Of a stretch of 52,722 nt of DNA, positions 2,456-44,384 are shown one piece after another. How positions within the stretch are numbered: position 1 is the stretch's first letter; the number at the start of each line of letters is the position of its first letter. The notes below the pieces were generated by a model. The model worked only from the letters and a program-made list of their open reading frames with translations. It searched no databases and was not told where the DNA came from. Source of the stretch: a virus; the IMG/VR virus record IMGVR_UViG_3300020711_000012, positions 1-52,722 of that record; one strand, given 5' to 3'. The position numbers and the translations under genes were made by a program.

Positions 2456-2568
2456 GTATTTATTATAGATAGAAAGTTAGGGCAATTAACTATCTATAAT
2501 AAACTTATTGGACTCTAGAATCATTGGTCATTGCCCGACCTTTGACTTCAATGAGTCCATTTTATTTT
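2456..2568 (+). ncRNA. HEG leader RNA, copy 1: hairpin with kissing loop
   Basis: Stem A pairs 2459-2471 with 2491-2503 (13 bp). Its loop holds GGGCAAT (2480-2486), complementary to ATTGCCC (2530-2536). The latter is the apical loop of hairpin C (GGTC/GACC, 2526-2529 with 2537-2540), which is enclosed by stem B (TGGACTC 2509-2515 with GAGTCCA 2553-2559). The leader ends in TTTTATTTT directly before the HNH start codon. The 5' arm overlaps the promoter-like motif GTATTTATTA. Five other copies vary in sequence but keep every pairing. Confidence 0.8.
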
Positions 2569-3132
2569 ATGGATTACTTAAAAATATATAATAGATTAGT
2601 CTGCAAATGTAAATTGGAGAAAAGAACAAAAAATAAAGAGGTTTATTACGAGTCTCATCACATAGTGCCAATATGTTTGGGAGGAATTGGTGATAGAAGA
2701 AATACAAACAATAAAAATATAGTTTTATTAACTATTAGAGAGCATATATTAGCGCACTGGTTATTACATAGAAGTTTTCCTGAAAATAAAAAATTAACAT
2801 ATGCTTTTCATTTAATGTGCATTAAAGATAAAAATACAGGTAGACATAGTATAAGAATATCAGTAGAAGCTAAACAATGCTATATTGAAAGTATTAAAAA
2901 TAGAATTCCATGGAATAAAGATAAAAAATTTCCACATAAAGTAAATTCAGGATCATTTTTCATTGGAATGAATACGTGGAATAAAGAATTAAAAACATCA
3001 GAAAAAACTAAAATTGCACAAAGTGAATCTGCTAAAAATAGGCCTTTGGCCCAATGTCCGCATTGTAAAAAAATAGCAAATAAGAGTAATATGATCCAGT
3101 GGCATTTTGATAATTGTAAATATAAAAATTAA
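2569..3132 (+). CDS. HNH homing endonuclease with C-terminal zinc finger
   Basis: The ATG at 2569 was chosen because it directly follows the conserved leader, as in the other five copies; upstream in-frame codons lie inside the RNA structure. The HNH region begins YESHHIVPICLGG and ends with REHILAHWLL. The last 25 residues hold a Cys2-His-Cys finger (CPHCKK, WHFDNC), also seen in two GIY-YIG endonucleases of this window. Codon use is far more AT-rich than that of the flanking replication genes. It is a free-standing mobile gene between uvsX and the exonuclease gene. Confidence 0.88.
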   Translation: MDYLKIYNRLVCKCKLEKRTKNKEVYYESHHIVPICLGGIGDRRNTNNKNIVLLTIREHILAHWLLHRSFPENKKLTYAFHLMCIKDKNTGRHSIRISVEAKQCYIESIKNRIPWNKDKKFPHKVNSGSFFIGMNTWNKELKTSEKTKIAQSESAKNRPLAQCPHCKKIANKSNMIQWHFDNCKYKN

Positions 3133-3146
3133 ATCTATAGTAGAAT

Positions 3147-4175
3147 ATGAATAGTAGATATGCAGAAATGATAAATGATCTTTCACAAAATAATACACAG
3201 ACCGTCGACTTAAGCCTGAATTCAAAGGTTTTCATAGTCGACGGTCTTTAACTCAACAACTTTCTCCGATCCTTCGCGATGATCCAGCACGTGAACCCAG
3301 CTGGACAGCACATAGGAGCTCTAACTGGGTTTCTCAAGTCGATGGCATATGGGATGAGACTGATAAGACCAACACGTGTCATAGTAGTATTTGATGGCCG
3401 CGGTAGCTCAACAAATAAGCGTTACCTCTATCCTGAGTACAAAGCAAATAGGGGTATAAAGAGAATCACAAACTGGGACATGTTCGATTCCCAAGAAGAG
3501 GAGTCTGATGCCATCAAGAACCAGCTTCTGAGGCTCGTGGACTACCTCAAATGTCTTCCCATAGATCTGCTATCGATAGACAAGATAGAGGCAGACGATG
3601 TCATAGGATACATAGCAAAGCGCATAGGAAAAGAGGTGACCATCATGTCTTCGGACCGAGATTACCTTCAGCTTGCATCGGACAGGATCAGCATATACTC
3701 ACCTACAAAGAAGAAGTTCTATTCTCCAAAAGACGTCTTGAGCGAGTACGAAGTGACGTCTCACAACTTTCTAACCCAGAAGGTGCTGCTTGGCGACAAA
3801 GGAGACAACGTTCCTGGGGTAAAGGGATTAGGCATCAAGACTTTGCTTAAACACTTTCCAGAGTTAGGAAAAAGTGCTACTATCAGTCTAGAGCATGTCA
3901 TAGAGAAGTGCAAGGACGGCGATGTTGCAATGCTCAAAAAGATCTACGACTTCAGAAGCCAGCTAGAGATCAACAAGAAGCTCATGGACCTAGACGAGCC
4001 TAACATACCAGCAGAGGCACAAGAGGAGATAGACCAGATGATGGGCAACCCAAAGAAGGACTACTATCCAACAGAGTTTACAGAGATGTATAACGAAGAT
4101 CAACTGGGACAGAGCATCACAAACCTACCTTCGTGGCTATACACAAACTTTAAGTATTTAGCAAGTATTTCCTGA
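3147..4175 (+). CDS. 5'-3' exonuclease (FEN/RNase H-like) with in-frame TAA
   Basis: From 3249 the reading frame matches the N-terminal nuclease domain of the FEN/Pol I 5'-exonuclease family (FDGRGSSTNKRYLYPEYKANR region, EADDVIGYIA, SSDRDYLQL, GDKGDNVPGVKGLG). The ATG at 3147 opens the same frame and encodes FIVDGL, the start of the family's first metal-binding motif. It then meets TAA at 3249-3251, and after CTC continues NNFLRSFA, the expected continuation. Starting at the next ATG (3279) would lose the motif I aspartate. The gene is therefore either recoded (CTT-TAA-CTC stop hop, see findings), mutated, or affected by a sequence error. Primer removal during replication is the likely role. 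Confidence 0.75.
3199..3247 (+). promoter_or_regulatory. 12-bp hairpin ending at the in-frame stop codon
   Basis: AGACCGTCGACT (3199-3210) is a perfect inverted repeat of AGTCGACGGTCT (3236-3247), with a 25-nt loop. The 3' arm encodes part of the essential VDGL motif and ends one base before the TAA at 3249. A 5' stem-loop next to a take-off codon is a feature of T4 gene 60 translational bypassing. An intrinsic terminator is less likely because only three T residues follow. Confidence 0.6.
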
Positions 4176-4284
4176 TATTTATTATAGATAGAAGCTCCTG
4201 CATGAGTTATCTATAATAGAACTTATTGGTCCTTTGAGATAGAGAGCATGCAGGCTCTTTGTCACTTTGGACCATTTTTATTTT
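4174..4284 (+). ncRNA. HEG leader RNA, copy 2: hairpin with kissing loop
   Basis: Stem A pairs 4178-4190 with 4208-4220 (13 bp including one G-U). Loop sequence CCTGCATG (4197-4204) is complementary over 8 nt to CATGCAGG (4247-4254), the apical loop of hairpin C (AGAG/CTCT, 4243-4246 with 4255-4258). Stem B is TGGTCC (4227-4232) with GGACCA (4269-4274). It begins within the stop codon of the exonuclease gene and ends at the GIY-YIG start codon. Confidence 0.8.
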
Positions 4285-5004
4285 ATGGCATATGTGTATC
4301 GTCATATAAGACTAGACAAGAATGAGGTTTTTTATATAGGAATAGGATCAGATAAAAACTATAAAAGATCTTATTCAAAAAAGAACAGAAATATTCATTG
4401 GAATAATGTGATTAATCTTACAGAATATAAAGTAGAAATTATGTCAGAAGAATGGTTAACTTGGGAAGAAGCCTGTGAAAAAGAAAAATTTTGGATTATA
4501 TTCTATGGAAGAGCAGATCTTAAATTGGGACCTTTAGTTAATATGACAGATGGTGGACAAGGTCAATTTGGTTTTAAACATTCTGAAGAAACAAAACGAT
4601 TATATAGATTATCCAGAAAAGGCCATTTAGTTTCTGATGATACTAAAAAAAAGATGAAAGAATCGAATACGGGAAAAGTAAGATCAGAAGAAACTAAATT
4701 AAATATAAGAAAATCTAAATTAGGGATATGTTTATCTTTACAACATAGAGAATCAATTTCTAAAGGTCAAAAAAATAGAGTAAAATCAGAATTAGAGAAG
4801 GCAAATATTAGCAGAGCTCTTAAGGGAAAATCTAAATCAGAAGAACATAAAAGAAAATTGAGCATATCTAAAATAGGAAATACTAATAGATTAGGAATAA
4901 AAAATCCAAAAATACAATGTCCGCATTGTAATAAAATTGGAGGAAATAACGGAATGACTCAGTGGCATTTTGATAAGTGCAAATATAAAAAACCAAATAT
5001 ATAA
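4285..5004 (+). CDS. GIY-YIG homing endonuclease with NUMOD repeats and zinc finger
   Basis: A GIY-YIG-type nuclease domain at the N-terminus (YVYRH... then FYIGIGSD). It is followed by several helical NUMOD3-like segments (HSEETK, SDDTKKK, SEETKLN, SEEHKRK) and a C-terminal CPHCNK...WHFDKC finger. The ATG at 4285 follows the conserved leader directly. Its N-terminal domain is paralogous to those at 26534, 32162 and 43737. The stop lies 7 bases before the helicase ATG. It probably recognises DNA near the junction of the exonuclease and helicase genes in phages lacking it. Confidence 0.88.
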   Translation: MAYVYRHIRLDKNEVFYIGIGSDKNYKRSYSKKNRNIHWNNVINLTEYKVEIMSEEWLTWEEACEKEKFWIIFYGRADLKLGPLVNMTDGGQGQFGFKHSEETKRLYRLSRKGHLVSDDTKKKMKESNTGKVRSEETKLNIRKSKLGICLSLQHRESISKGQKNRVKSELEKANISRALKGKSKSEEHKRKLSISKIGNTNRLGIKNPKIQCPHCNKIGGNNGMTQWHFDKCKYKKPNI

Positions 5005-6729: not shown

Positions 6730-8340
6730 ATGAATATCTCACAGGAAATATTATCAGATATTACAGTACACTTAAAATATTCCAAATACCTCCCAGAACT
6801 ACAGAAGAGAGAGTCTTGGGAAGAATTGGTAGACAGAAACAAGGCAATGCATCTCAAGAAATATCCCAATATGCAAGCTGAGATAGACTGGGCTTATGAA
6901 TTCGTATATGATAAAAAGGTGCTTCCTTCTATGAGGAGCCTGCAGTTCGGTGGAAAGTCGATAGAGATATCTCCTAACAGAGTGTATAACTGCGCGTACC
7001 TTCCTATAGACGACATACACGCTTTCTCTGAGACGATGTTCCTGCTGCTTGGTGGCACGGGAGTAGGTTTCTCTGTACAGAAGCACCACGTTGAGAAGCT
7101 GCCAGAGATAAGGAAACCGAACCCAAAGAAGCACACAAGGTTCCTGATAGGAGACTCGATAGAGGGTTGGGCAGACGCAGTCAAAGCCCTGATCAAGTCC
7201 TATTTCAGAGGTGGATCATCGATTAACTTTGACTTCTCTGACATACGTCCAAAAGGAGCAATGCTAGTTACTTCTGGCGGTAAAGCTCCAGGTCCTCAAC
7301 CACTGAAAGAGTGCTTACTAATGTTAGATGGAATACTCAGCCAGAAAGAGGATGGAGATAAACTCAGCTCGATAGAGGTTCACGACATGGTCTGCCACAT
7401 AGCTGATGCAGTACTTGCTGGGGGTATAAGGAGAGCGGCATTAGTATCACTATTCTCAGCTGACGATGAGGATATGATCTCTTGTAAGACTGGTCAATGG
7501 TGGGAATTAAATCCGCAAAGGGGTAGAGCGAATAACTCGGCTGTACTTTTAAGGAATAGACTTACAAAGGAATTCTTTATGGATCTCTGGAAGAAGATTG
7601 AGAACTCGGGATCAGGAGAACCGGGTATATTTCTTAGTAATGATAAAGATTTAGGAAGTAATCCTTGTATGGAAATTGCACTAAGACCATATCAATTTTG
7701 CAACCTTTGCGAGGTAAATGTTTCAGACGTAGTAGACCAAGAAGATCTTAATGACAGAGTAAATGCAGCAGCGATAATAGGGACTTTACAAGCAGGATAC
7801 ACTAACTTTCACTATCTCAGACCAATATGGCAGAAGACTACAGAGAAAGAAGCACTAATAGGAGTAGGAATGACTGGAATAGGGTCAGGAGTTGCTCAGA
7901 AGCTGGATCTTAAAAAGGCCGCTCTCATAGTGAAAGAGACGAACGCAGCAGTAGCGAAAGCGGTAGGGATAAACGCAGCAGCCCGTTGCACTACAATAAA
8001 ACCGAGTGGGTGCATGATACCAGAAACTGAAATAATAACAAATAAAGGTATTCTCTCATTAGAGGATATTTTTAAAATCAATGGATATGACTTATCTGAT
8101 TTTAAAAATAACGAAAAGCTATTTTTAGAAGTAACAGAGGATATAAAAGTCAAAGATTTAAATGATGAATGGCAACAAATTAATAAATTATACATTAATG
8201 GAGTAGAAGAAACGTTTGATGTGGAGTTTGAAGATGGTTTGGTAGTTACAGTTACAGCAAATCATAGGTTTTTAACTAAAAATAGGGGGTGGGTTAGAGC
8301 AGACGAATTGAAGGATGATGATGATATTATAAATTATTAG
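6730..8340 (+). CDS. nrdJ: Class II ribonucleotide reductase, N-terminal part fused to intein N-half
   Basis: Residues 1-427 are the first two thirds of a B12-dependent (class II) ribonucleotide reductase: VLPSMRSLQFGG, GGTGVGFSVQ, the NPCMEI active-site segment and CNLCEVN, ending TTIKPSG. Residue 428 is the Cys of an intein (CMIPETEIIT, block A). The intein continues for 109 residues to a stop, with block B (TVTANHRFLT) and the GWVRADEL segment. The missing part of the reductase is at 9540, joined to an intein C-half. Protein trans-splicing of the two would give an enzyme of about 619 residues. From about 7500 the gene becomes AT-rich, probably through co-conversion. Confidence 0.92.
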   Translation: MNISQEILSDITVHLKYSKYLPELQKRESWEELVDRNKAMHLKKYPNMQAEIDWAYEFVYDKKVLPSMRSLQFGGKSIEISPNRVYNCAYLPIDDIHAFSETMFLLLGGTGVGFSVQKHHVEKLPEIRKPNPKKHTRFLIGDSIEGWADAVKALIKSYFRGGSSINFDFSDIRPKGAMLVTSGGKAPGPQPLKECLLMLDGILSQKEDGDKLSSIEVHDMVCHIADAVLAGGIRRAALVSLFSADDEDMISCKTGQWWELNPQRGRANNSAVLLRNRLTKEFFMDLWKKIENSGSGEPGIFLSNDKDLGSNPCMEIALRPYQFCNLCEVNVSDVVDQEDLNDRVNAAAIIGTLQAGYTNFHYLRPIWQKTTEKEALIGVGMTGIGSGVAQKLDLKKAALIVKETNAAVAKAVGINAAARCTTIKPSGCMIPETEIITNKGILSLEDIFKINGYDLSDFKNNEKLFLEVTEDIKVKDLNDEWQQINKLYINGVEETFDVEFEDGLVVTVTANHRFLTKNRGWVRADELKDDDDIINY

Positions 8341-8379
8341 ATTAATTTTTACTATTAAGCCTATTATTGTAATTAATCA

Positions 8380-8394
8380 GATATTTATAATAAA
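8380..8394 (+). promoter_or_regulatory. Phage promoter-like motif before the EDxHD endonuclease
   Basis: GATATTTATAATAAA lies 10 bases before the GTG start at 8405. This short leader type (motif plus AATAAAA and a few bases) also precedes the endonucleases at 10269, 14630, 24659 and 32162. Confidence 0.55.
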
Positions 8395-8404
8395 AGGCTT
8401 AATT

Positions 8405-9550
8405 GTGAAAAAAGATATAAAAAAGATTAATAGACTGAGACGACTACTGATTCATCTACTTGGAGAAGAGGGGGGCAACAAGAGATGTGCAAATTTAATG
8501 CGAGGGTCTTCTTTAAAAGTATTACAGTTTAAATACGGAAAAGAGTTAGGCTTATTTAAATATAAACAAAAAATAGAAAATGATAAGTTTAAAAATACCC
8601 TAAATGGATTCATTAAAAGATACGGGGAGGAGTTAGGTAGAGAGGAATATTTAGAAAAAAATAGTAAACTTTCAGTTAGTATAAATGCTTTAAAATTAAA
8701 TGGATATAGTGATGATGAAATAAAAGACATTAAAGCAAAACACTCTATTAATTCAAAGACTGACTTGGAAAGCATGATAAAAAAATATGGAGAAAAAGAG
8801 GGTAGATTAAGATATAAAAAGAAAATAGACAGTGGGTATTCTTGTAGAGATTATAAATCTGTAATGAAATATTATGGAGTAAGTGAATTAGAAGCTAAAC
8901 AGTTTGTTAATAAGAATCAATCAAGAGGGTTAGATTATTATATAAAAAAGTATGGTGATAATATAGGAAAGGAAAAATATGATGAGGCTAATAAAAAAAT
9001 AGCATATTCACAGACTAAAGACTATTATATCTCTAAATTTGGAAAAATTGAAGGCTTAAATAGATATAAAGAATTATGTTATAGTAAAGGAAAATCTGGA
9101 AGATTAGAATATTATATAGATAAATTTGGAGAAGTAGAGGGTCGGAATTTATATTCTGATATGATAAAAAAGAAAATTAGTTATTTTCCAGATTTTAGTT
9201 CAAATATAGAAAAAGATTTTAATTTATCACTATATGATTTATTAAACAATAAACAAAAAGAGGTATTTTTTGGTTACCCAATAACAAAACCCTATTTTAT
9301 AAATCTAAACCAGAATGATTATCAAATAAAGTGTATAGTACCAGACATTAAAATAGGAAATACTGTAATTGAATTTGATGGAGATTATTGGCATTCTTTA
9401 CCTAATAATATAGAGAGAGATAGATTAAAGGATAAGATATATGCTAATATGGGATTAAATTTAATTAGAGTTAAAGAATCAAATTATTTAAAAAATAAGC
9501 AATTAGTATTAGAAAATATAATAGAATTAATTAAATATTATGAAAATTAA
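8405..9550 (+). CDS. EDxHD (Vsr-like) homing endonuclease between intein halves
   Basis: A 381-residue protein. It contains six copies of a repeated DNA-binding-type unit, Y/F-G-x-x-x-G-x-x-x-Y (KYGKELGLFKY, RYGEELGREEY, KYGEKEGRLRY, KYGDNIGKEKY, KFGKIEGLNRY, KFGEVEGRNLY). The C-terminal Vsr-like nuclease domain has VIEFDGDYWH followed by ERDRLKDK. This matches the EDxHD endonuclease family described between split-intein halves in 'fractured' phage genes. The start is GTG; the end overlaps the intein C-half gene by 11 bases, suggesting translational coupling. Confidence 0.88.
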   Translation: MKKDIKKINRLRRLLIHLLGEEGGNKRCANLMRGSSLKVLQFKYGKELGLFKYKQKIENDKFKNTLNGFIKRYGEELGREEYLEKNSKLSVSINALKLNGYSDDEIKDIKAKHSINSKTDLESMIKKYGEKEGRLRYKKKIDSGYSCRDYKSVMKYYGVSELEAKQFVNKNQSRGLDYYIKKYGDNIGKEKYDEANKKIAYSQTKDYYISKFGKIEGLNRYKELCYSKGKSGRLEYYIDKFGEVEGRNLYSDMIKKKISYFPDFSSNIEKDFNLSLYDLLNNKQKEVFFGYPITKPYFINLNQNDYQIKCIVPDIKIGNTVIEFDGDYWHSLPNNIERDRLKDKIYANMGLNLIRVKESNYLKNKQLVLENIIELIKYYEN

Positions 9551-10223
9551 AAAAATAACAAAGTCTGGAAATAAATTTACTGTTGACATAGAAGTAGATA
9601 ATACTCATTCATATCAACTAAAAAATAAATCTGTGGTTCATAATACCTCCTCTCTAGTCCTGGGCACATCTTCTGGCATACATGCGTGGCACAGCGAGTA
9701 CTACATCAGAAACATAAGAGTTGGCAAGAACGAGGCCATATACACGTACCTGAGCATATACCACCCAGAGCTGATACAGGACGAGTACTTCAAGCCCCAC
9801 AGCACGGCAGTCATCTCGGTCCCACAGAAAGCGCCAGAGGGTTCGATACTGAGGACAGAGTCAGCGATAGATCTGCTCGAGAGGGTAAAATACTTCTACA
9901 ACAACTGGATCAAACCAGGACACAAGACAGGACAGAACACACACAACATCTCGGCCACGATCTCTATAAAGGACGGAGAGTGGGACACTGTAGGAGAGTG
10001 GATGTGGGAGAACAGGACTTGCTACAACGGGCTTTCAGTGCTGCCATTCTCAGACCACACCTACGTTCAGGCACCTTTCCAAGACTGCGATAAAGAGACT
10101 TACGAAAAAATGATGGAGTCGCTTTCTAACATAGATCTGAGCTTGGTGGTAGAGGCAGAAGACAACACAGACCTTAAGGACCAAGTTGCGTGTGCTGGAA
10201 ATAGTTGTGAAATTAATATATAA
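9540..10223 (+). CDS. nrdJ: Intein C-half fused to C-terminal part of class II ribonucleotide reductase
   Basis: Residues 1-35 are the intein C-half, with block F (VDIEVDNTHSYQL) and the terminal HN. The first extein residue is Thr, a permitted +1 nucleophile. Residues 36-227 continue the reductase exactly where the N-part stops (TSSLVLGTSSGIHAWHS), ending with a Cys-containing tail (ACAGNSCEINI) likely to regenerate the active-site disulfide. The intein part is AT-rich while the reductase part is GC-richer and typical of this phage, so the boundary is also visible in base composition. Confidence 0.92.
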   Translation: MKIKKITKSGNKFTVDIEVDNTHSYQLKNKSVVHNTSSLVLGTSSGIHAWHSEYYIRNIRVGKNEAIYTYLSIYHPELIQDEYFKPHSTAVISVPQKAPEGSILRTESAIDLLERVKYFYNNWIKPGHKTGQNTHNISATISIKDGEWDTVGEWMWENRTCYNGLSVLPFSDHTYVQAPFQDCDKETYEKMMESLSNIDLSLVVEAEDNTDLKDQVACAGNSCEINI

Positions 10224-17979: not shown

Positions 17980-19641
17980 ATGAGTAAAACACAAAGTCTT
18001 TCAGGTCAAGAACTAAAAGAAAAACTTCTTGTTGGTATTGAAAAACTAAATATGACTGTATCTTCAACATTAGGACCCGGCGGAAGAAATGTAATACTGG
18101 TAGATTCTACTACTGGAGAAATTAAAATTTCTAAAGATGGAGTTTCCGTCGCAAAAAATTTCCATAAATTAGAAGATGAAATTGAGAATATCGGCGCTCA
18201 ATTAGTAAAGCAGGTATCAATTAAATCAGCGAACGAAGCTGGAGACGGCACAACAACTTCGACTCTTCTCGCGACAAAGATGATCCAAGAGGGAATGAGA
18301 GAGATCCGCCAAGGCACCAATGCGGTAGAGGTCAAGGCTGGCATAGACAAGGCAGTAGCAATGGTCATCGAAGAGCTGAAGAAGTTCTCGGTAGACGTGA
18401 GCACAGAAGAGCAGATCAAGCAGGTTGCGACCATATCAGGCAACAATGACACTGAGGTAGGAGAGCTGATCTCTGCAGCAATAGACAAAGTAGGTCGCGA
18501 AGGTCTGATCACGATAGAAGAATCAAAGACAGGAGAGACTACGCTAGAAGTGGTAGAAGGCATGCAGTTCGACAGGGGATACAAGAGCCCGTACTTCGTG
18601 ACAAACAACACTACTATGACCGCTATCCTCGAAGACTGCTACATCATGCTGTTCGACGGCAGGATAAATTCAGCAGCAGAGATCATACCGTTCTTGCAAA
18701 AAGCAAACTCAGAGAACAAGTCCATACTGATCATAGCAGAAGACTACGGAGACGAGGCGCTTGCGTTGATGATCGTCAACAAGATGAGAGGCGTAGTAAA
18801 GGTGTGTGCGGTGAAAGCCCCAGACTTCGGTGATCGCCGTACGCTGCTTCTTGAGGACATGGCGATACTGACTGGCGGAACGGTAATGTCAAAGAGCAAA
18901 GGGCACAAACTTGAAAAGATAACGCCCCAAGACATGGATAAGTTCTTAGGAAAATCAAGGTTGGCTACAATAAGCAAGGAAGACACGACGATGGTAGATG
19001 GCAAAGGAGACGCAGAGACGATACAAGCAAGGTCTCTGGAGATCAAAGATCAGATAGACAAAGCTCAGTCTTTCTTCGAGAAGGAGAAGCTGCAAGAACG
19101 ACTTGGAAAGCTCATAGGCGGAGTGGCCATCATCAACGTAGGAGGCAACTCTGAGATCGAAATGAGGGAGAAGAAAGACAGGGTAGAAGACGCATTGCTT
19201 GCAACAAAGGCGGCACTGGCAGATGGCATACTTCCTGGTGGCGGTGTGGCTTTGATCAAGGCGATCATAGCGATGAACAGCAAGACTCTGGACTGGAAAG
19301 AGAACGAGAAGATCGGGTTCAAGATAGTCAAAGAGGCGTGCCATGAGCCTTTCAAGAGGATACTCTCAAACGCAGGCATGGACAACTGGTATGAGATCTT
19401 GCACAGCATAAACCAGAAAGACGACCAGTTCACTGCGTATGATGCGAAGAACAAGTGCATAGTCAATGGCATAGCAGCAGGGCTTTTGGATCCTACAAAG
19501 GTGGTAACGTCTTCGATCAAGAATGCTAGCGGAGTCGCCGGTACAGTTTTGACTGTTGAATCGGTGGTTTTATCTATTAAATCTAAAAAGGAACAAGAAG
19601 ACTCAGAAAATTCTTTGGGTGGAATGAATTTAGGAATGTAA
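17980..19641 (+). CDS. groEL: Chaperonin GroEL, phage-encoded
   Basis: A 553-residue chaperonin with the ATP-binding signatures LGPGGRNV, SKDGVSVAK and NEAGDGTTTSTLLA, and GILPGGGVALI near residue 415. It ends in a short Gly/Met tail (GGMNLGM). The first 240 bases and the last 80 bases are AT-rich, while the middle is GC-richer. A second Gly/Met tail lies at the end of the endonuclease gene downstream, showing that a cassette was inserted into the original groEL 3' end. It likely folds phage structural proteins together with the GroES at 17324. Confidence 0.93.
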   Translation: MSKTQSLSGQELKEKLLVGIEKLNMTVSSTLGPGGRNVILVDSTTGEIKISKDGVSVAKNFHKLEDEIENIGAQLVKQVSIKSANEAGDGTTTSTLLATKMIQEGMREIRQGTNAVEVKAGIDKAVAMVIEELKKFSVDVSTEEQIKQVATISGNNDTEVGELISAAIDKVGREGLITIEESKTGETTLEVVEGMQFDRGYKSPYFVTNNTTMTAILEDCYIMLFDGRINSAAEIIPFLQKANSENKSILIIAEDYGDEALALMIVNKMRGVVKVCAVKAPDFGDRRTLLLEDMAILTGGTVMSKSKGHKLEKITPQDMDKFLGKSRLATISKEDTTMVDGKGDAETIQARSLEIKDQIDKAQSFFEKEKLQERLGKLIGGVAIINVGGNSEIEMREKKDRVEDALLATKAALADGILPGGGVALIKAIIAMNSKTLDWKENEKIGFKIVKEACHEPFKRILSNAGMDNWYEILHSINQKDDQFTAYDAKNKCIVNGIAAGLLDPTKVVTSSIKNASGVAGTVLTVESVVLSIKSKKEQEDSENSLGGMNLGM

Positions 19642-19647
19642 AATATA

Positions 19648-19761
19648 GATATTTATTATAGATAGAAAAGTGCCGTAATCATTTATCTATAATAAAACTT
19701 ATTGGTCCATAGAATTATTAGCTATTACGGAGCTGGTATTTTTATAGGACCTTTTTATTTT
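19648..19761 (+). ncRNA. HEG leader RNA, copy 3: hairpin with kissing loop
   Basis: Stem A pairs 19652-19664 with 19684-19696 (13 bp). Loop CCGTAAT (19673-19679) is complementary to ATTACGG (19724-19730), the apical loop of hairpin C (AGCT/AGCT, 19720-19723 with 19731-19734). Stem B is GGTCC (19704-19708) with GGACC (19747-19751), plus ATA/TAT with one bulged A. It ends CTTTTTATTTT directly before the GIY-YIG ATG. Confidence 0.8.
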
Positions 19762-20631
19762 ATGAAACTAATATACATTTATGTTAAAAGAAGCCCCCTT
19801 GGTTTACTATATTTAGGAAAAACTATAAAAGATCCATATAAATATAAAGGGTCAGGTAGTAGGTGGTTAAATCATATTAAATTTCATAATTTTACAAATA
19901 AAGATATTGAGACTTGGATATTACACAAAACTGAAGATAAAGAAGATCTTAAAAAGATAGGAGAATATTATTCTATATTATTTAATATTGTAGAATCTAA
20001 AGAGTGGGCTAATCTTAAATTAGAGAGTGGTGATGGAGGAGGGAGTCCATGGACTCAAGAAAGAAGAGATCTTTTTATTAAGATGTTTTCTGGTGATAAT
20101 CATCCAAATAAATCTATAAAAAATAGAGAGATTTTAAAATTATCATGGACTCAAGAAAGAAAAGATCACGTTAGTAAAATTATTAAAGGCTCTAAGATGT
20201 CTGATGTAGGTAAACAGAAAATTAAAGATTCTTGGACACAAGAGAGAAAAGATAAAATGGCTAAGTTAATAAAGGATGGTAAACATGGAAATTTTGGAAA
20301 GGGGCAGAGTGGGGAAAAAAACGGCATGTTTGGTAAAAGAGGAGCAGATCATCCATCATCTAAAAGAATAGCAGAGAATAATCCTATGTTTGGGAGAATA
20401 GGGAAATTATCAGCTAGATCAAGGCCAATTTCTCAATATAAATTAAATGGAGAGTTTATTAAAAATTGGGATAGTATTGCTGATATTCGTAGATATTATA
20501 AAATAAATAATAGTCATATATCGTCAGTCTGTTCTAATAAGAGAAAAAGTTGTTATGGATATATTTGGAAATATACAAAAAAAGAAGAGAACTCAGGAGA
20601 TGGACTTCAAGGTATGGGAGGAATGATGTAA
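19762..20631 (+). CDS. GIY-YIG homing endonuclease ending in a displaced GroEL tail
   Basis: The ATG at 19762 follows the leader. The N-terminus is a GIY-YIG domain (LIYIYVKRS, LLYLGKTI, KGSGSRW). Next come repeated helical units starting SWTQERKD or PWTQERRD, NUMOD-like segments and a NUMOD1-type HTH ending YGYIWKYTKK. The final residues, NSGDGLQGMGGMM, are not endonuclease-like but match a GroEL Gly/Met C-terminal tail. The protein thus appears to read into the original groEL end left behind by the insertion. Confidence 0.87.
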   Translation: MKLIYIYVKRSPLGLLYLGKTIKDPYKYKGSGSRWLNHIKFHNFTNKDIETWILHKTEDKEDLKKIGEYYSILFNIVESKEWANLKLESGDGGGSPWTQERRDLFIKMFSGDNHPNKSIKNREILKLSWTQERKDHVSKIIKGSKMSDVGKQKIKDSWTQERKDKMAKLIKDGKHGNFGKGQSGEKNGMFGKRGADHPSSKRIAENNPMFGRIGKLSARSRPISQYKLNGEFIKNWDSIADIRRYYKINNSHISSVCSNKRKSCYGYIWKYTKKEENSGDGLQGMGGMM

Positions 20632-22904: not shown

Positions 22905-23018
22905 TATATTTATTATAGATAATAATCGAATCCGACTCGACTATCTATAATAAACTTATTGACCTATTAATCTATTGTGATGTCGGATATCCTTTAGTTT
23001 TTTAGGTCTTTTTATTTT
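22905..23018 (+). ncRNA. HEG leader RNA, copy 4: hairpin with kissing loop
   Basis: Stem A pairs 22909-22921 with 22942-22954 (13 bp). Loop ATCCGAC (22930-22936) is complementary to GTCGGAT (22982-22988), the apical loop of hairpin C (GAT/ATC). Stem B is GACCTA (22961-22966) with TAGGTC (23003-23008). It ends TTTTTATTTT directly before the HNH ATG at 23019. Confidence 0.8.
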
Positions 23019-23579
23019 ATGGAAAAATTATATAAACACCATATCGTCCCAAGACACTCTGGAAGTACAGATGATCTAAGCAATATAAAATTAGTTACAT
23101 TGTCAGAGCACGCTGAAGAACATAGATTATTGTGGGAAAAAAATAAAAATCAATATGATTATATTGCGTGGAAGTGTTTATGCGGACAAATACCAGTAGA
23201 AGAGGCAATAAATAAAATTCGTTCCATTAATGGCAAAAAGCAAGGTGAGAAAAACGCTCAATCTGGATGGATGTTAAAAATTAGATTGTTGATGAATCCA
23301 AAAGAAACCGGCAAAAAATCAGCTGAATTTTGCAGAAAAAATAAGATTAATTCATTCTTTGATCCAGAAATATTAAAAGAAGTTAGAAAAAAAGGAGGAC
23401 ATGTTCAAGGTAAAAAAAATGCTGAATCTGGACACCTTCAAAGAATTTCAAAATTACCAAGAAAATATACCAAAAAACAGTGGTATTATAATGAAAATAG
23501 TAGTATATTAATAAAAGATGGAGATCCAATTCCAGATGGTTATATAAAAGGTAGAAAATGCCCACACAAAAACAACTAG
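23019..23579 (+). CDS. HNH homing endonuclease
   Basis: A 186-residue protein in which the HNH domain is right at the N-terminus (YKHHIVPRHSGSTDDLSNIKLVTLSEH). Two copies of a GKK..E/K.A.SG segment follow (KKQGEKNAQSGW and QGKKNAESGHL). The start codon follows the structured leader. Its 3' end runs 22 bases into the dCMP deaminase gene, so endonuclease C-terminus and deaminase N-terminus share DNA in two frames. Confidence 0.86.
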   Translation: MEKLYKHHIVPRHSGSTDDLSNIKLVTLSEHAEEHRLLWEKNKNQYDYIAWKCLCGQIPVEEAINKIRSINGKKQGEKNAQSGWMLKIRLLMNPKETGKKSAEFCRKNKINSFFDPEILKEVRKKGGHVQGKKNAESGHLQRISKLPRKYTKKQWYYNENSSILIKDGDPIPDGYIKGRKCPHKNN

Positions 23580-26419: not shown

Positions 26420-26533
26420 GATATTTATTATAGATTATATTACGACTACGACACGTAATCTATAATAAACTTATTGGTCCATTCAATCTCAGAAGGTCGT
26501 AGCTCTGAAGATTTTTTGGACCACTTTTATTTT
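26420..26533 (+). ncRNA. HEG leader RNA, copy 5: hairpin with kissing loop
   Basis: Stem A pairs 26424-26436 with 26457-26469 (13 bp). The loop-closing pair is T-A here where the other copies have A-T, a compensatory change. Loop CTACGAC (26446-26452) is complementary to GTCGTAG (26496-26502), the apical loop of hairpin C (TCAG-AG with CT-CTGA, one bulged A). Stem B is TGGTCC (26475-26480) with GGACCA (26518-26523). Confidence 0.8.
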
Positions 26534-27253
26534 ATGGCATACATATATAGACATATTAGACTAGATAAGAATGAAGTTTTCTATATCGGGATAGGATCAG
26601 ATAAAAATTATAAAAGAGCGCATACAAAAAAGAATAGAAATAAATACTGGCATAATATAGTAAATCTTACTGATTATAGAGTAGAAATAATCTCAGAAGA
26701 ATGGTTAACTTGGGAAGAATCTTGTGAAAAAGAAAAATTTTGGATTATATTTTATGGCAGAGCAGATTTAAAAAAAGGGACATTAGTTAATATGACAGAT
26801 GGAGGAGATGGAGCGCTTGGGTCTATACTTACAGAAGAAAGAAAAAGACTTATAAGTAAAACTCATAAAGGAAAAAAATTAACAGAAGATCACAAAAGAA
26901 AAATTAGCATCTCTCATAAAGGAATTTCTAATGGACCATGTTCTGAAAAAACTAAGAAAAAAAGAAGTATAGCATTAACAGGAAAAAAACGATCTAAAGA
27001 GACTAAGAAAAAATTAAGTGACGCTCAAAGAGGAAAACATTATTCTGAAGAATCAAGAAAAAAAATGAGTGATCTAAAAAAAGGAGAAAAAAATTATAAC
27101 TTTGGAAAACCCGCGCATAATAGAAGAAAAGTAATAAATTTAGAAACCGGAGAAATATATGATTCTGTTAAACTTGCATCTATAATAAATCATATACACA
27201 AATCTACAATGAATTTATTAATTAAAAAAGGAATAAGATTTAAATATTATTAA
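26534..27253 (+). CDS. GIY-YIG homing endonuclease
   Basis: A paralogue of the proteins at 4285, 32162 and 43737, with an almost identical nuclease domain (MAYIYRHIRLDKNEVFYIGIGSD). Several NUMOD3-like units follow (LTEDHKRK, CSEKTKKK, RSKETKKK, YSEESRKK) and a C-terminal NUMOD1-like segment. The ATG at 26534 follows the structured leader. It lies 3 bases before the Cas4-like nuclease gene, whose first 150 bases are AT-rich. Confidence 0.88.
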   Translation: MAYIYRHIRLDKNEVFYIGIGSDKNYKRAHTKKNRNKYWHNIVNLTDYRVEIISEEWLTWEESCEKEKFWIIFYGRADLKKGTLVNMTDGGDGALGSILTEERKRLISKTHKGKKLTEDHKRKISISHKGISNGPCSEKTKKKRSIALTGKKRSKETKKKLSDAQRGKHYSEESRKKMSDLKKGEKNYNFGKPAHNRRKVINLETGEIYDSVKLASIINHIHKSTMNLLIKKGIRFKYY

Positions 27254-43623: not shown

Positions 43624-43736
43624 GATATTTATTATAGATAGAAAATTACTAGGAATAATTATCTATAATAGACTCATTGGCTCATAGAGTGTTGGATGTT
43701 CCTAGCTCCTTCACTTGACTGAGCCACTTTTATTTT
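43624..43736 (+). ncRNA. HEG leader RNA, copy 6: hairpin with kissing loop
   Basis: Stem A pairs 43628-43640 with 43660-43672 (13 bp with one G-U). Loop CTAGGAA (43649-43655) is complementary to TTCCTAG (43699-43705), the apical loop of hairpin C (GGA-G with C-TCC, one bulged T). Stem B is TGGCTCA (43678-43684) with TGAGCCA (43720-43726), 7 bp. It ends CTTTTATTTT directly before the GIY-YIG ATG. Confidence 0.8.
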
Positions 43737-44384
43737 ATGGCATATGTCTATAGACACAGAAGATTAGATAAGAATGAAATCTTTTATATAGGAATAGGGT
43801 CAGATAACAAAGGAAAATACAGCAGGGCTTATTCTAAAGACAACAGAAATAAGCATTGGGATAATCTAATTAAACTTACAGAATACCAAGTAGAAATAAT
43901 CTCAGAAGATTGGTTGACTTGGGAAGAAGCTTGTGAAAAAGAGAAATTTTGGATTAGATTCTATGGAAGAGTTGACTTAAAGACCGGATCTCTTGTTAAT
44001 ATGACGGATGGTGGCGATGGAAACCTTAATCCATCTTATGAAACAAGAGAAAAAATATCCAGTAGATACTATCCAGTTGGAAAAGAAAACCCAAAATATA
44101 GAATTCCATTATCTGAAGATCATAAGAAAAAAGTGAGTCAAAATCATCATGATGTATCAGGAAAAAATAATCCTATGTATGGATCTATTGGTGGATTTTT
44201 TGGTAAAAAGCATAAAGATAGCTCTAAAATTAAGTGTAGTTTAGCAAAAATAAAAAAAATTCAGCACTTGGAAACAGGATTAATATTTAATTCTCAAAAT
44301 GAAGCTGCATTATATTTTAAAATATCACCATCTCTTATAACTCTATACAAAAAACAAGGAAAATTTATCTTACTTAAAACTTAA
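43737..44384 (+). CDS. GIY-YIG homing endonuclease
   Basis: A 215-residue paralogue of the 4285/26534/32162 group (MAYVYRHRRLDKNEIFYIGIGSD). It has a NUMOD3-like middle (LSEDHKKKVS, NPMYGSIGG) and a C-terminal NUMOD1-like HTH (NSQNEAALYFKISPSLITLYKKQG). The latter is the best match to the remnant upstream of groEL. The start is fixed by the leader. Confidence 0.88.
   Translation: MAYVYRHRRLDKNEIFYIGIGSDNKGKYSRAYSKDNRNKHWDNLIKLTEYQVEIISEDWLTWEEACEKEKFWIRFYGRVDLKTGSLVNMTDGGDGNLNPSYETREKISSRYYPVGKENPKYRIPLSEDHKKKVSQNHHDVSGKNNPMYGSIGGFFGKKHKDSSKIKCSLAKIKKIQHLETGLIFNSQNEAALYFKISPSLITLYKKQGKFILLKT

Follow-up and report, generated by a model that had tools for sequence, protein, structure and literature searches.

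The stretch of DNA analysed here, hereafter the window, is a virus record of 52.7 kb from a T4-like phage. It contains recA/uvsX-like, FEN exonuclease, helicase, ribonucleotide reductase, polymerase and groEL genes, and numerous homing-endonuclease genes are interspersed among these. The nearest relative of its single-stranded DNA-binding protein is found in Flavobacterium phage immuto. A sequence-only reading had placed six leaders of common architecture at positions 2456, 4174, 19648, 22905, 26420 and 43624; all six are present at these sites, and in each of them TTTTATTTT is followed immediately by the ATG of an ORF (Table 1).

Table 1. Positions of the six leaders and of the endonuclease genes behind them, with the elements of copy 1 listed individually.
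Feature	Position in window	Strand	Remark
Copy 1, putative late-promoter box TATTTATT, in 5′ arm of outer stem A	2457–2464	+	read from sequence
Copy 1, predicted late RNA, +1 to AUG	2470–2571	+	+1 inferred, T4 spacing assumed
Copy 1, kissing loop A, GGGCAAT	2480–2486	+	
Copy 1, kissing loop C, ATTGCCC	2530–2536	+	
Copy 1, stem B 5′ strand, TGGACTC	2509–2515	+	
Copy 1, stem B 3′ strand, GAGTCCA	2553–2559	+	
Copy 1, U-rich tether TTTTATTTT ahead of AUG	2560–2568	+	
Copy 1, HNH-type homing endonuclease, 187 aa	2569–3132	+	HNH-like motif; without Pfam match
Copy 2, leader, box to AUG	4176–4287	+	loop A CTGCAT 4198–4203, loop C ATGCAG 4248–4253
Copy 2, GIY-YIG endonuclease with NUMOD3, 239 aa	4285–5004	+	
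Copy 3, leader	19650–19764	+	loop A CCGTAAT 19673–19679, loop C ATTACGG 19724–19730
Copy 3, GIY-YIG-type endonuclease, inserted at groEL 3′ end	19762–20631	+	without Pfam match
Copy 4, leader	22907–23021	+	loop A ATCCGAC 22930–22936, loop C GTCGGAT 22982–22988
Copy 4, HNH-type endonuclease	23019–23579	+	without Pfam match
Copy 5, leader	26422–26536	+	loop A CTACGAC 26446–26452, loop C GTCGTAG 26496–26502
Copy 5, GIY-YIG endonuclease with NUMOD3	26534–27253	+	
Copy 6, leader	43626–43739	+	loop A CTAGGAA 43649–43655, loop C TTCCTAG 43699–43705
Copy 6, GIY-YIG-type endonuclease	43737–44384	+	without Pfam match

Several other genes of the window display peculiarities of their own. The exonuclease gene after copy 1 (3147–4175) reads ...VFIVDGL-stop-LNNFLRSF, with a 6-nt addition (CTT TAA CTC context) located after a strong hairpin (3191–3250). 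The addition is absent in the relatives L031, L067 and G001 and is shared by L017, which contains a further frame break; the stop could belong to a T4 gene 60-like bypassing hop or to a decayed start. The ribonucleotide reductase alpha gene (6730–10223) harbors an intein-like insert, which is interrupted by a free-standing gene resembling an endonuclease (8405–9550), with the N part and the C part from 9540 forming a split-intein arrangement. At the groEL locus (17980–20631) the GroEL sequence preceding the endonuclease terminates in SENSLGGMNLGM. The endonuclease ORF itself terminates in KEENSGDGLQGMGGMM, apparently the original tail of GroEL in a displaced position. Three short ORFs between 45585 and 46437 consist of repeated SQLxSQL units, e.g. 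WSQLGSQLGSQL. Finally, simple endonuclease genes at 8381, 10249, 14610, 24638 and 32143, as well as L050–L058 of the relative G001, carry a box ATATTTATWATAA about 18–23 nt before the start. Several of these boxes occupy the loop of a small hairpin that extends as far as the start codon, a T4-type control without kissing loops, and in G001 the box is also found ahead of other, late-type genes.

In each of the six leaders the loop of hairpin A is complementary to the loop of hairpin C, which lies within stem B. All six loop pairs agree with those first written down, with a length of 7 nt except in copy 2, where the hairpin loops comprise 6 nt (CTGCAT/ATGCAG) within an 8-nt complementary stretch. 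Hairpin A, originally described as one 13-bp element, resolves into two parts, namely an inner 4-bp stem with a 7-nt loop, which is common to the entire family, and an outer arm of 12–14 bp, which overlaps the putative late promoter and is present only in leaders of the endonuclease type. A covariance model built from 23 copies matches exactly these six leaders on the plus strand of the window; its other matches there are weak, lie on the minus strand and correspond to two of the same inverted repeats only. Folding of the single window leaders yields z values of -3.1 to -5.5.

The leaders belong to a considerably larger family. When IMG/VR was scanned with a pattern for the 12-bp arms, 47 loci with 25 distinct leaders were obtained, all of which possess a complementary loop pair, mostly of exactly 7 nt. 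A search pattern that made no demand on hairpin A (TTATTGG, gap, CC, U-tract, ATG) returned 86 stretches, and a laxer version at least 119. Altogether, kissing loops are found in about 90 distinct leaders from public viral contigs. All relatives are metagenomic viral contigs, and their hosts were assigned via promoter type and relatives. In every listed leader a promoter box abuts hairpin A, either TATTTAT, which resembles the T4 late box and stands before endonucleases of T4-like phages, or, elsewhere, the Bacteroidota -7 box TAnnTTTG and near variants. The proposed link to homing endonucleases holds for all six window copies, but the leaders of the second, host-type group also precede replication-initiator-like proteins and a DNA methylase in addition to HNH and GIY-YIG proteins. 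These gene calls were made mostly by inspection rather than by Pfam, the replication-initiator-like ones resting on one weak DUF1376 match and otherwise on assignment by eye. The host-type leaders are situated in replication regions, in which ssb, recombinase and helicase-like genes also occur.

The endonucleases behind the leaders comprise several families of GIY-YIG and HNH proteins. Identical or near-identical leaders are found before unrelated nuclease families; L032 and L046, for instance, contain the same leader with different nucleases behind it. In L041 the leader is intact, with only a 40-aa endonuclease remnant behind it. L042 (minus strand) is the sole leader found without hairpin A and lies ahead of an endonuclease broken at 96 aa.

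The class had not been recognised at the outset, and Rfam likewise provides no match: the Rfam 15 covariance models gave none at the gathering score in the window or in eight relative loci, and around copy 1 even a limit of E = 5 produced none. HEARO, the omega RNA of IscB nucleases, was considered and rejected, since it gives no Rfam match and the downstream genes are of the GIY-YIG or small HNH type. Among 50,697 records of named phage isolates no blastn match was obtained, and of 59 pattern matches in cellular genomes (84,980 species) only one passed a loose kissing test, and this is a chance match of low complexity. A literature search for an endonuclease-associated kissing loop apparently yielded no paper describing such an element. 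Hence, the RNA family appears to be undescribed so far, although structured cis-acting leaders as a broad kind are known.

Loops A and C are complementary in all 53 diverse aligned leaders, which contain 25 different loop sequences. A strict automatic kissing test is passed by 52 of the 53, compared with a mean of 3.6 (maximum 9) when the C halves are permuted among the leaders. Mismatches are absent, and two to four types of Watson-Crick pair occur at every one of the seven kissing positions. In the separate alignments of host-type leaders (A3) and endonuclease-type leaders (A4) the kissing helix consists entirely of standard pairs, with two-sided changes at six of its seven pairs in each alignment and no one-sided changes. 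Over all paired cells, 99.3% are standard in A3 and 95.7% in A4, with covariation scores of 0.663 (shuffles 0.206) and 0.521 (shuffles 0.191), respectively. No shuffle matched the observed scores, and the signal was lost when the partners were slid by 1–3 columns. The compensatory changes noticed earlier in stems B and C are borne out by these sub-alignments, and the view that selection acts on RNA structure, including the kissing loops, is upheld in the enlarged set. The kiss, the inner stem A and stems B and C are thus near certain, as judged from covariation in sequence alignments.

The outer stem of the endonuclease type covaries weakly (two-sided change in 1 of 10 pairs), its G-U and compensated variants being those of L041, L149, L191 and copy 5, the last in agreement with the sequence-only reading. 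The linker AACTTATT is almost invariant, part of the conservation of both linker and U-tract having been imposed by the search patterns themselves. Pairing between the A-rich linker and the U-tract is compositionally possible in most leaders and shows no covariation. In the predicted late RNA an extension of the loop pairing into the flanking arms was looked for by inspection and is not conserved.

The position of the promoter box indicates where in the transcript the structure lies. In endonuclease-type leaders, the window copies included, the putative late box TATTTAT is situated in the 5′ arm. Its unpaired TA is itself conserved, as dropping the first two box bases from the pattern gained no locus. 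In G001 TATTTAT occurs within 40 nt upstream of 28 of 218 ORF starts, compared with 6–21 for control words, and because many of these sites lie about 10–30 nt before late-type genes the motif is read as a late promoter. For the host-type leaders, TAnnTTTG has been mapped to positions -12 to -5 in F. psychrophilum (PMC9723704). If this spacing is applied, pairing of hairpin A begins no more than 1 nt from +1 in 39 of the 48 host-type leaders; in the remaining 9 chance pairing reaches 2–3 nt further upstream. Under T4 spacing the late RNA would begin at leader position 14. For 21 of the 25 endonuclease leaders such an RNA is predicted to fold with nucleotide 1 paired and the 7-nt loop exposed, the inner stem having shifted its register. 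Both +1 positions are carried over from promoter spacings of other organisms. Since hairpin A begins at about +1 under these published spacings, transcription probably starts at or beside its first paired base, and the conserved core would represent a 5′-terminal kissing-loop leader.

Such an arrangement might serve mainly to stabilise the message, the blunt 5′ hairpin and the kiss guarding the 5′ end from decay without directly affecting initiation. Consistent with this, the first nucleotide is paired in most predicted RNAs, RNAs paired at the 5′ terminus decay more slowly in E. coli, and at least two unpaired 5′ nucleotides are required by the pyrophosphohydrolase of Bacillus (reviewed in PMC3997798). 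Stabilisation alone would leave the fixed AUG spacing, the U tether and the placement of hairpin C next to the start codon unexplained, and is regarded as improbable.

At the other end of the leader, the foot of stem B is separated from the ATG by 10–11 nt in 50 of the 53 leaders; in the window copies stem B ends 9–11 nt before the AUG, which is unpaired in most folds. In the genomes examined, U-rich starts are confined to genes with a leader, accounting for 1 of 151 starts in the genome of a relative and for 5 of 48 in the window, while the other starts are A-rich. In Flavobacterium johnsoniae, A at -3, -6, -12 and -13 together with open structure favours initiation (PMC6847099); the leaders carry U, U and a stem instead. 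As they break these start rules, initiation should be weak or dependent on the fold.

The reading preferred here, with a probability of roughly one half, is that of a promoter-coupled, 5′-terminal kissing-loop leader RNA which gates expression of the downstream gene. Transcription from the abutting promoter would generate a message without a free 5′ tail. Its 7-nt loop A pairs, as covariation shows, with the 7-nt loop C within stem B. The closed fold would shield the 5′ end and hold the AUG on a U-rich tether devoid of the A-rich signals usual for the host, and translation would then be low or take place only when the fold permits. The module is portable, being common to unrelated nuclease families and replication genes. 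Precedents for each separate idea, not for their combination, are found in T4 (PMC2988022, PMC3014915). While structure and architecture of the leader are near certain, its function, be it a translation gate with 5′-end shielding or an attenuator, is inferred. A more speculative and rather unlikely variant is an RNA ‘cap’ of Bacteroidota phages, in which the 5′ end is tied by the kiss to the start-codon domain and the fold itself recruits or positions ribosomes in hosts that make no use of Shine-Dalgarno sequences, which would provide the phages with a start site driven by structure.

Alternatively, stem B/C and the U-tract could constitute an intrinsic terminator, with the A–C kiss deciding whether RNA polymerase terminates after about 100 nt or continues. 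The GC-rich stem B is indeed followed directly by UUUUUUAUUUU or a near variant, and U-rich starts are otherwise absent. However, the four U residues adjacent to the AUG are the most constant ones in the first, unforced set, and a fixed spacing between stem and AUG is needless for a terminator. A strong terminator would moreover be polar, as the units lie between essential early genes and no clear host-type promoter is found between leader and next gene. The exact tail is also rare outside leaders on the same contigs (34 further sites versus 107), and two of these 34 are leaders that the leader test had overlooked, while a hairpin precedes only four of the others. An attenuator is therefore considered unlikely.

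In the endonuclease version the leader gains the outer arm, which spans the putative late promoter and is predicted to pair with the A-rich linker. By analogy with T4, this linker would be hidden on early read-through RNA and the gene silent, while the late RNA would lack that arm. The off-switch for read-through translation suggested initially is thus plausible here as T4-style silencing, but it does not provide a general reason for the kissing loops. The predicted mean unpaired probability of the start codon differs only slightly (0.34 in read-through and 0.44 in late RNA), in models which exclude the kiss. That the leader is nothing but such a switch, silent on early read-through RNA and relieved when the internal late promoter fires, seems quite unlikely: the kissing core is common to host-type leaders without the outer arm, and the start codon is unpaired in the model. 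It would agree with the late box within the 5′ arm, with simple endonuclease genes of the same phage whose box lies in hairpins reaching the start codon (window 10249 and 14610), and with the mode of action of T4 I-TevI and segB and of Aeh1 mobE (PMC2988022).

The leader is also the 5′ end of a mobile unit, as shown by empty sites. Comparison of copy 5 with the empty site in L004 indicates that the inserted unit consists of the leader and the gene, preceded by about 7 nt and followed by 3 nt, with the junction ATGCCTAA beside the unit retained on both sides. The leader hence moves with the endonuclease unit as its expression module. As a general explanation, however, the cis signal tied to mobility or single-stranded DNA that had been proposed is rejected, because the same kissing core precedes replication and other genes at a Bacteroidota-type promoter and the RNA starts at promoters.

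A trans-acting partner, either a phage protein such as a single-strand binding protein, as T4 gp32, or a complementary RNA, appears highly improbable. The pseudoknot with an unstructured A+U-rich start does resemble the gene 32 operator (PMC3014915), and the loops diversify. Yet no antisense RNA or partner was identified, no antisense promoter was recognised by eye, and the distinctness of loops within one genome (0 identical among about 22 within-genome pairs, about 8% expected) is not significant.

The leaders represent a structured phage RNA family with very strong covariation, shared by mobile endonucleases and replication genes at two promoter types. They make it directly testable by what means phages of bacteria without Shine-Dalgarno initiation time and limit the expression of dangerous genes or of genes that start replication. 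ColE1-type RNAI/RNAII kissing likewise involves two hairpin loops of 7 nt that are complementary. In contrast to the latter, the kiss of the leader is formed in cis within one molecule, and no antisense RNA was identified. The translational operator of T4 gene 32 is likewise a pseudoknot in a phage 5′ leader followed by an unstructured A+U-rich initiation region; it is, however, an H-type pseudoknot instead of a loop-loop kiss of two hairpins, whereas the leader does not precede an ssb gene and has no known binding protein. In the split start sites of T4 genes 38 and 25, too, structure just before the start determines how far an upstream element effectively lies from the AUG (PMC3014915). The leader differs from these by the missing Shine-Dalgarno sequence, the A-rich linker and the kissing loops. 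In Aeromonas phage 25 seg43 a very stable hairpin is located directly before an unpaired endonuclease start (PMC2988022), but a single hairpin without kissing partner has been described. The T4-type hairpins of I-TevI, I-TevII, I-TevIII and segB and of Aeh1 mobE share with the endonuclease version the late box in a hairpin, the endonuclease behind it and, as predicted here from sequence, an early read-through RNA folding unlike the late RNA. Contrary to them, the leader comprises about 100 nt with intramolecular kissing loops, its stem pairs neither the ribosome-binding site nor the start codon, and its core also serves replication and other genes at host-type promoters. The endonuclease version thereby constitutes a clear parallel to T4-style homing-endonuclease control outside the E. 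coli world, possibly one which evolved independently.
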